This document shows positions 12,804-25,011 of a stretch of DNA of 32,973 nucleotides, piece after piece. Location of the stretch: contig JAHEKL010000002.1 of assembly GCA_024638345.1 (NCBI GenBank), positions 1 through 32,973 on the forward strand, in the 5' to 3' direction. The position numbers and the translations under genes were made by a program. This DNA comes from Gammaproteobacteria bacterium. GTDB taxonomy: Bacteria; Gemmatimonadota; Gemmatimonadetes; Longimicrobiales; Gaopeijiaceae. Below the pieces are notes generated by a model. It was not told the DNA's origin. It searched no databases and saw only the letters and a program-made list of their open reading frames with translations. The first letter of the stretch is position 1, and each line of letters opens with the position of its first letter.

Positions 12804-13558
12804 CGGAATCTCCGGTGCTGCTGGCCTTCGACACCTCGACGACCACGGGGTCCGTGGCCGTAGCGCGGGGCGACCACGTGGTCGCGCGCAGATGGCTGCT
12901 CGAGCGCCGGGAGCATGCCTCGAGGCTGGTTCCCGAAGTGGCGACGGCGCTGGAAGCGGCGAGGGTGTCACCGGAGGAAATCGATGGGCTCGTGGTAGGG
13001 CGTGGGCCGGGCTCGTTCACCGGTCTTCGTATCGCCGCCGCTACGGCCAAGGGTCTCGCAAGAGCCTTGGCCGTGCCGCTCTGGCATCACTCCTCCCTCG
13101 CGGCGGCGGCGGCCTCGCTCGAGGTCGAGGTCCCCGAGGCGCTTCTACCGAAGGCGGAGGCGAAGAACCGGGAGGTGTTCCAGGTCGCGGCGGATCGGCC
13201 TCGGTACGTCCTCTTCGACGCTCGATCCGAAAGGGTCTACGCGGCCTGCTACTGGATGCTTCCGGACCGCCTGACGACCTTGATCGAGCCGACCGGGACG
13301 ACCATTACCCGAATCCTCGAGACCGGGGCGCCCGACGGGGCCGTGTTCTGCGGAGATGGCGCGGTTCGACACTCCGCCCGGTTGTCCGAGGCCGGCTACC
13401 AAGTGCTTGCGCTTCCTCTCGGTCTCCCGACCGCCGAGGGACTTCTGAGAATACACCACGCCTTGCGGGAGGAGGATGGGCAGGGGGAGATCGGCCCATG
13501 GGAGCCCGAATACCTGAGGGGTTCGCCTGCAGCGCCCCCGAGGAGCTCGCGTGGATGA
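12800..13558 (+). CDS. tsaB: tRNA t6A biosynthesis protein TsaB
   Basis: GTG start at 12800 in GTGA overlap with tsaE stop; LLAFDTSTTTGSVAVARG, GRGPGSFTGLRIAAATAKGLA. Confidence 0.9.
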   Translation: MTESPVLLAFDTSTTTGSVAVARGDHVVARRWLLERREHASRLVPEVATALEAARVSPEEIDGLVVGRGPGSFTGLRIAAATAKGLARALAVPLWHHSSLAAAAASLEVEVPEALLPKAEAKNREVFQVAADRPRYVLFDARSERVYAACYWMLPDRLTTLIEPTGTTITRILETGAPDGAVFCGDGAVRHSARLSEAGYQVLALPLGLPTAEGLLRIHHALREEDGQGEIGPWEPEYLRGSPAAPPRSSRG

Positions 13559-23445: not shown

Positions 23446-24027
23446 ATGATGTATCGCAGACTTCTCATCGTGTCTGTGGTTCTCGGGGGCCTGGCGCTGG
23501 CCGCATGCGGCAGTGAGCCTCCACCGGAGCCGCCTGCACCCGAGCCGATGGCGACCGGACCGGACATGGATTCGCTCAGAGCCTACGAGGACTCGGTTCG
23601 AAGGGCGCAGGAGGAGGCGGCTCGATTGGCCGCTGAGCGTGAGCGGGCCATTGCCGACGCGCGCGCCATCCTGGAGCAGCGCGTCCACTTCGACTACGAC
23701 CAGTCCGCGATCCGATCCGACGCGGAATCGGTGCTTCGTCAGAAGTTGGCCATCCTGCGTTCGAGCCCACAGGTCCGGATTCGGATGGAAGGGCACGCTG
23801 ATGAGCGGGGCTCGGTGGAGTACAACCAGGCACTCGGCAACCGTCGCGCGCAGAGCGTACTCGACTTCTTCACCCAGCAGGGGCTGACGGCCGGGGCGTT
23901 CCAGACCACCTCTTTCGGCGAGGAGCGGCCTCTCTCGACGGCCAGCAACGAGACGGCGTGGGCCCAGAACCGCAGGGTGGAGTTCGTGATCACCTCCGGC
24001 GGGGGCAGCATCAACCCCGCGCAGTAG
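23446..24027 (+). CDS. pal: Peptidoglycan-associated lipoprotein (OmpA C-terminal domain)
   Basis: Lipobox LAAC; VHFDYDQSAIRSDAE, MEGHADERGSVEYNQALGNRRAQSVLDF, RRVEFVI. Confidence 0.95.
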   Translation: MMYRRLLIVSVVLGGLALAACGSEPPPEPPAPEPMATGPDMDSLRAYEDSVRRAQEEAARLAAERERAIADARAILEQRVHFDYDQSAIRSDAESVLRQKLAILRSSPQVRIRMEGHADERGSVEYNQALGNRRAQSVLDFFTQQGLTAGAFQTTSFGEERPLSTASNETAWAQNRRVEFVITSGGGSINPAQ

Positions 24028-24065
24028 GCGAACGTAGCAAACGGTGCTCGTCGCCCGACGTGCGC

Positions 24066-24131
24066 CGGTCTGGTTGGCACACCGGTCGGGCGGACCTTGC
24101 GTCTCCCGGCCGGTGTAGGCCAACCCGATCG
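24066..24131. repeat. Long imperfect hairpin between pal and cpoB-like gene
   Basis: Segments pair 66-70/127-131, 72-78/119-125, 79-85/110-116, 86-90/105-109, 92-95/101-104 (last two digits or offset from 24000), loop 24096-24100; about 28 pairs including G.U wobble. Confidence 0.75.
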
Positions 24132-24157
24132 CCACGGGGCTGCTTCCGTCCCGTGGC
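24131..24157. repeat. Second hairpin abutting the long one
   Basis: GCCACGGG (24131-24138) / CCCGTGGC (24150-24157), perfect 8-bp stem, 11-nt loop. Confidence 0.7.
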
Positions 24158-24192
24158 AGGGATGGGCACCCCACAGGAGACCCTTCTCGGCC

Positions 24193-25011
24193 ATGAATGC
24201 CACGTCTCGTAGACGACCCCCACTCGAATCCACGCACACGCTCCAACGCCTCCCGCTCCGACGCGCATTCCAGGGGCTCGTAGCCATCTTCCTGCTTCTA
24301 CCCATGGTCGGCTGCGCGACCAAGGGGGACATCCGGAACCTCCAAACGGAGATCCGTGAGCTCACCTCGCGGCAGCAGGCGCTCCTTCAGGAGTTGCGGC
24401 AGGCCCAGCGGGACCAGGACGAGTCGATCTCCCAAGTCGCAGACGACATTCGGGACTTCCGGGCTGAGACCTCTCGTCGGGTAGCCAGCATCGAGGATCA
24501 GCTTCTCACCGTGCAAGAATTGGCGGGCCTCTCGCAGCAGCAGGTGGCGAGTCTCCGCGATCAATTGGAGCGCGATCGGACGCAGCGGAGCTTCGGGCCG
24601 CCTTCCACGTTCGGCGGTCCGCCGGGGGGAGGGGGTGATCAGGCTCAGGAGGTCTACAACGCCGCCCTCACGCAATACCAGCGCGGAACTCTGAGCGCGG
24701 CCCGGATGGGCTTTCGCACGATCGTCGATCAGTACGGTGCCCATCAGCTGGCCCCCGAAGCCCGCTACTACCTGGCGGAGATCCTGGCGCGGGAGGGAAG
24801 CCTGGAGGAGGCGATCGCCGCCTTCGAGGACATCCGCGAGTTTCATCCGACCGCAGACCGAGTACCCGACGCCCTCTACCGGGCCGGGCTTCTGTACCTG
24901 GAACTCGGGGATGACGATGCGGCGGAAGAGCACTTCGAGCGGGTCGTGAACACATGGCCCGACTCCGTGGCGGCCGATCTGGCCCGGGATGCCCTCCGGA
25001 ATCAGCGCTAG
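24193..25011 (+). CDS. cpoB: CpoB/YbgF-like coiled-coil + TPR protein, predicted lipoprotein
   Basis: Lipobox LPMVGC, N-terminal coiled coil, C-terminal TPRs (EVYNAALTQYQRGTLSAARMGFRTIVDQY...); last gene of Tol-Pal cluster. Confidence 0.88.
   Translation: MNATSRRRPPLESTHTLQRLPLRRAFQGLVAIFLLLPMVGCATKGDIRNLQTEIRELTSRQQALLQELRQAQRDQDESISQVADDIRDFRAETSRRVASIEDQLLTVQELAGLSQQQVASLRDQLERDRTQRSFGPPSTFGGPPGGGGDQAQEVYNAALTQYQRGTLSAARMGFRTIVDQYGAHQLAPEARYYLAEILAREGSLEEAIAAFEDIREFHPTADRVPDALYRAGLLYLELGDDDAAEEHFERVVNTWPDSVAADLARDALRNQR

Follow-up and report, generated by a model that had tools for sequence, protein, structure and literature searches.

Very stable hairpins that lie between genes of one operon and lack a U-tract have been described at malE-malF and puf, and the malE-malF hairpin is a REP. 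In Escherichia coli, operon boundaries can carry hairpins that lack U-tracts and shield the upstream gene from 3'-to-5' exonucleases; of 34 such gene pairs, 26 had a protective hairpin, which in 17 cases was located inside the downstream coding sequence (PMC5927463). The hairpin analyzed here, between pal and cpoB, resembles these cases in its great stability, in its position between operon genes without a U-tract, in being placed sometimes inside the downstream coding sequence, and in that the upstream product is expected to be the more abundant one. It differs from all of them in belonging to another phylum and another operon, in being known here from sequence alone, and in that the sequence of its core (type A, see below), not the fold alone, is conserved. 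Unlike the malE-malF hairpin, it is single-copy. No hairpin at pal-cpoB was found in the open-access literature searched. Our preferred reading, to which we give about an even chance, is that the hairpin is an intercistronic 3'-end element, one that would mark or protect a stable pal mRNA at its end and lower the output of cpoB.

The pal-cpoB gap and its predicted fold

The window (the whole stretch of 32,973 nucleotides that was analyzed) carries, all on the forward strand, tolQ (19774), tolR-like and tolA-like frames, tolB (21819), pal, a cpoB/ybgF-like gene, nrdR, and tatC, with the tolR and tolA frames named by position and sequence, without a family search. The pal gene (23446–24027, stop codon 24025–24027), which encodes the peptidoglycan-associated lipoprotein and bears the hairpin at its 3' end, matched TIGR02802 (Pal_lipo) with an E-value of 1.2e-35 and 121.7 bits (cut-off 125.35). 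The best named match of Pal was from a Gemmatimonadetes MAG (88% identical), and further close records were labelled Gemmatimonadetes or Longimicrobiales. The cpoB/ybgF-like gene (24193–25011), encoding a periplasmic TPR lipoprotein, matched TIGR02795 (tol_pal_ybgF) with an E-value of 2.3e-22 and 79.8 bits (cut-off 90.1). The gap between the two genes spans 24028–24192. A probable Shine-Dalgarno sequence of cpoB, AGGAGA (24175–24180, forward strand), was read from the sequence 12 nt before the ATG at 24193.

The minimum-energy fold of the whole gap had an energy of -94.4 kcal/mol (z -4.67). The main hairpin (24066–24131, forward strand) comprises ~28 bp in five near-continuous helices with a 5-nt loop (-47.4 kcal/mol, z -6.42) and ends 62 nt before the cpoB ATG. 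It is abutted by a second hairpin (24131–24157, forward strand; 24131–24140 paired with 24148–24157) of 10 bp with a 7-nt loop (-19.4 kcal/mol, z -4.47). Folding of 24043–24160 (z -6.69) predicted an additional small hairpin upstream (24043–24066, forward strand), weaker than the other two. For the gap, the main hairpin, and 24043–24160, none of 200 shuffled sequences each was as stable as the native one, in agreement with the claim of the preliminary description that the inverted repeat exceeds chance. When all 16,448 80-nt segments of the 33 kb, taken from both strands, were compared, 24057–24136 was the most stable (-53.7 vs a mean of -26.1, sd 5.6). The main hairpin is real, and its stability is far beyond chance. 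The runner-up among the 80-nt segments was 13033–13112 (ACGGCCAAGGGTCTCGCAAGAGCCTTGGCCGT), located in a 747-nt stretch in which the rough gene caller placed no gene.

The preliminary description had paired this inverted repeat by hand, and most of its details were reproduced. The helices 24072–24078/24119–24125, 24079–24085/24110–24116, 24086–24090/24105–24109, and 24092–24095/24101–24104 were all present in the minimum-energy fold, together with the 5-nt loop, the 2-nt bulge (24117–24118), the 1-nt bulge (24091), and the 1x1 mismatch (24071/24126). The basal helix 24066–24070/24127–24131 formed in full when the element was folded alone, and was reduced to 24067–24070/24127–24130 in the whole gap, because 24131 pairs in the second hairpin. 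This second hairpin had been given as 8 bp, a value that the fold corrected to 10 bp.

Conservation, copy number, and strand bias

The main hairpin contains a conserved core, CCGGYCGGGNGGACC-N4-GTYNCCCGGCCGG (24082–24113, forward strand), flanked on its 3' side by a conserved GTA (24115–24117). The core was matched in 8 of the 121 family genomes, once in each. In six of these eight genomes, which represent four genera (G000, G001, G024, G031, G033, and G115; hereafter type A), it occupies the same place in the pal-cpoB gap (alignment A3). The matches in G065 (C37; 2 mismatches) and G110 (3 mismatches) were discounted because they are on contigs other than that of pal. No match to the core was found in genomes from two further families of the order.

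Between genera, the 32-nt core was 78–94% identical, compared to 25–49% identity at the four-fold degenerate third positions of pal, both calculated for the five of six type A genomes with a full pal gene. Such identity of the core, although the synonymous sites of pal are saturated, indicates that the type A core is under selection. In alignment A3, 10 of the 16 base pairs were invariant, and most of the changes retained a G-U or another standard pair. The arms beyond the core differ in sequence, yet they pair in most type A genomes, as exemplified by GGTTGGC/GCCAACC (G000), GGGAC/GTCCC (G024), and ACGGGC/GCCCGT (G033); only a weak outer stem was observed in G001. The presence of the second hairpin in relatives, as judged by eye, was inconsistent.

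Because the hairpin is palindromic and intergenic, as are REP/BIME elements, the preliminary description had listed a REP/BIME-like element or a MITE remnant among its candidates, i.e., a repeat without a role at the pal-cpoB locus. Unlike such elements, the hairpin is not repeated. BLAST of the gap against its own genome (a MAG in 369 contigs with a completeness of 79%) returned only the gap itself and short chance matches, and a pattern search for the core with up to 3 mismatches found it there once. Relatives bearing the core likewise had one copy per genome, and both repeat candidates were rejected. With selection on the core and the sense-strand bias described below also opposing it, an origin as a repeat without a local role is hardly credible. 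The single copy instead ties the hairpin to the pal-cpoB locus. No Rfam family was matched at its gathering score; two matches were below threshold (ar7, 17.2 of 60; Rhizobiales-2, 22.4 of 40).

The strand on which selection acts was addressed by symmetric scoring of G-U and A-C pairs in 66 stems. Their ratio was 61:13 in stems near the pal stop vs 132:115 in control stems elsewhere in the loci (Fisher p 6e-6, uncorrected for shared ancestry and a guide only), where some of the 66 stems, from two other families or from deeper in the scanned stretch, may be chance. An antisense RNA, or a site in the DNA, would accept A-C pairs in the forward-strand reading at least as readily as G-U pairs, and the excess of G-U therefore indicates that selection acts on the sense RNA of the stems near the pal stop.

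Hairpins near the pal stop in related genomes

Ungapped inverted repeats scoring 11 or higher on Watson-Crick pairing were mapped in 90 loci; 75 of these belong to the family and 15 to two other families of the same order. Strong stems were detected at 0–50 nt after the pal stop in 35 of the 90 loci, at 50–100 nt in 20, and at 100–150 nt in 10. The other 50-nt bins, including the tolB-pal boundary, mostly contained 0–5%, and up to ~10% in the sparsest bins. The 5' arm started at a median of 28.5 nt past the pal stop. A strong inverted repeat between the pal stop and about +200 nt was present in 27 of the 36 sampled family genera, which are non-independent samples represented mostly by MAGs. 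Several genera (g12, g26, g23, g27, and g15) had no such stem by the ungapped score criterion, which can miss bulged stems like those visible in G031 and G024. The sites of the stems vary: they are located just after pal, around the ribosome-binding site of cpoB, or within the first cpoB codons, where the cpoB start codons were assigned by rule. As judged from these genomes, a hairpin near the pal stop is kept in most sampled genera of the family, with its sequence and exact place turning over. Folding z-scores near the pal stop averaged only about -2 over the family, and the mapping of inverted repeats was more telling than these averages. A 504-nt gap in G031 (L232, 7158–7661) contained a perfect 26-bp inverted repeat with a 48-nt loop and a second perfect one of 20 bp.

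In a tree of Pal C-termini and CpoB, the type A genomes formed one clade (support 0.93). This clade adjoins genomes of type C, in which the hairpin is within the initial codons of cpoB; arms like GACCCCTCC...GGGGGAGGGGTC enclose loops of ~40 nt, and only a few codons separate the ATG from the 5' arm. In another large clade (type B), nearly all members have a compact hairpin, CCCCTCCYCCGG/CCGGRGGAGGGG, 14–22 nt past the pal stop. This palindromic pattern, searched on both strands, was found once each in 20 genomes, and in 19 of them at the 3' end of pal, as judged by coordinates or sequence. The match in G132 was left out because it has A/T flanks like those of a terminator and no visible pal sequence. 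In this locus (L133; G132:C179:16171–16198), GCGAAAAG and CTTTTCG border the palindrome, which thereby resembles a terminator for both directions.

Covariation was almost nil in type A, as determined by RNAalifold and pair counts, because most of its pairs never vary. In type B, double changes were found in 9 cells vs 5.6 in shuffles. The comparison of pal-cpoB gaps among relatives that had been proposed for this element thus demonstrated conservation of the stem, and covariation within types that was weak to modest.

The positions of the type B and type C hairpins bear on translational control of cpoB, in which the hairpin would hide or crowd the start region and lower translation or couple it to that of pal. 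The type B 3' arm (GGGGGAGGGG) contains a Shine-Dalgarno-like GGAGG a short way upstream of ATG codons, with CCTCC in the opposite, 5' arm, and the type C 5' arm starts close behind the ATG; these positions depend on the cpoB start codons as assigned. In type A, however, the main stem is far from the ATG, and AGGAGA is outside both main hairpins. Translational control is therefore not a function common to all types, and we consider it improbable as the explanation of the hairpin. An RNase III-type processing site, at which the stem would be cut and the pal and cpoB messages separated, fits the ~28 bp near-continuous stem of the window. Many stems of the family, however, have just 12–16 bp and short loops, which makes such a site a very improbable explanation.

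Expression of pal and cpoB

According to the preferred reading of a protective 3'-end hairpin, RNA polymerase would read through the gap, and the sense RNA just past the pal stop would fold into the very stable stem. An endonuclease, probably RNase E/G, would cut the cpoB part of the transcript, and 3'-to-5' exonucleases such as PNPase would halt at the stem, so that the pal message would persist and the cpoB message would be lost. With both genes in one operon, Pal would in the end be made in excess of CpoB. The cutting of the transcript, the halting of exonucleases at the stem, and the resulting shift in the Pal:CpoB ratio are steps that we infer. The locus has the features of a 3'-stabilising hairpin, i.e., a stable and conserved hairpin between co-directional operon genes, no U-tract, and a genome that encodes both PNPase and RNase E/G. 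Models of these enzymes were matched above cut-off in all 7 genomes tested. The genome of the window had two long PNPase matches (G000:C302 and G000:C289), compared to one full-length match in relatives, possibly due to contamination or strain mixture in this MAG.

In many type B genomes, an ATG starts within ~10 nt of the hairpin. The space between them would hardly accommodate a separate promoter, and cpoB is therefore probably transcribed through the hairpin. A promoter scan of 23900–24400 gave no match near the stem of the window. The stems in early cpoB codons of several genera (type C) match the hairpins inside downstream coding sequences in E. coli (17 of 26; PMC5927463). In E. coli, furthermore, Pal is an abundant lipoprotein and CpoB regulates PBP1B (PMC7391070), and unequal amounts of the two are therefore plausible; although encoded in one operon, they need not have equal output.

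A processing or stabilising structure that sets the Pal:CpoB ratio and a cis-regulatory RNA were the two other candidates of the preliminary description. Both fit the position near the pal stop, the sense-strand G-U signature, the strong conservation, and the lack of a U-tract. A plain exonuclease barrier would not require sequence conservation as strong as that within type A. Sequence-specific recognition would explain why, despite saturated synonymous sites, change is resisted in the type A core (GGACC...GTCC apex with the GTA flank) and in the arms of type B (CCCCTCCYCCGG). A sequence-specific cis-regulatory RNA, bound by a protein or a regulatory RNA and tuning the Pal:CpoB ratio in these Gemmatimonadota, is nevertheless rather doubtful in our view.

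Termination at the hairpin is a live alternative, because hairpins with a T-run are widespread behind proteobacterial pal genes. Among 40 mainly proteobacterial loci, 22 had a stem 0–50 nt past the pal stop, many with classical T-runs. Records labelled Alpha- and Deltaproteobacteria (L165, L168, L173–L178, L180–L188, and L191–L194) had a hairpin ~15–40 nt after pal, usually with a T-run and even before a cpoB-like gene. The hairpin of the window shares with a rho-independent terminator the GC-rich stem soon past a stop codon. It differs in that the stem is followed by AGGCCAACC, with no U-tract directly behind it, and by the next gene of the operon, and an ordinary rho-independent terminator was rejected. 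A terminator scan of 23900–24400 was empty, and throughout the family TTTT was present within 10 nt of a single stem among the 60 detected. Hairpins behind pal are thus widespread, and those of the family are, with rare exceptions, without a U-tract.

A transcription attenuator, in which the hairpin would make RNA polymerase pause or dissociate in the absence of a U-tract, perhaps aided by a factor, and let only part of the transcripts reach cpoB, would agree with the proteobacterial hairpins. It would also agree with G013 (L038), where a separate hairpin followed by TTTTTT is located in the same gap, and with the distance of 13–31 nt past the stop in many genera, which resembles that of terminators elsewhere in these genomes. 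The missing U-tract argues against attenuation, as do the T-rich tails of some hairpins behind other genes in the genome of the window and in relatives (TTCTCGTTC and TTTCCATGA). We regard attenuation as unlikely, though worth serious attention. Hairpins after genes were scarce in tandem gaps of this genome and two relatives (7 of 67, 14 of 78, and 3 of 37), in counts based on a rough gene caller.

The amount of CpoB relative to that of Pal would fall under protection, under attenuation, and under reduced cpoB translation, which is the order in which we rank them. A hairpin kept at the 3' boundary of pal while its sequence and place change would be a clear natural example of how RNA structure can be selected for its effect on operon stoichiometry. 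The true terminators at the same place in many Proteobacteria suggest a general need, served in different ways, to separate the expression of pal from that of cpoB, an idea open to direct test in laboratory species. In 8 of the 40 mainly proteobacterial loci, a strong inverted repeat was also observed close to where pal starts, ~550–600 nt ahead of its stop, perhaps at the tolB-pal boundary.
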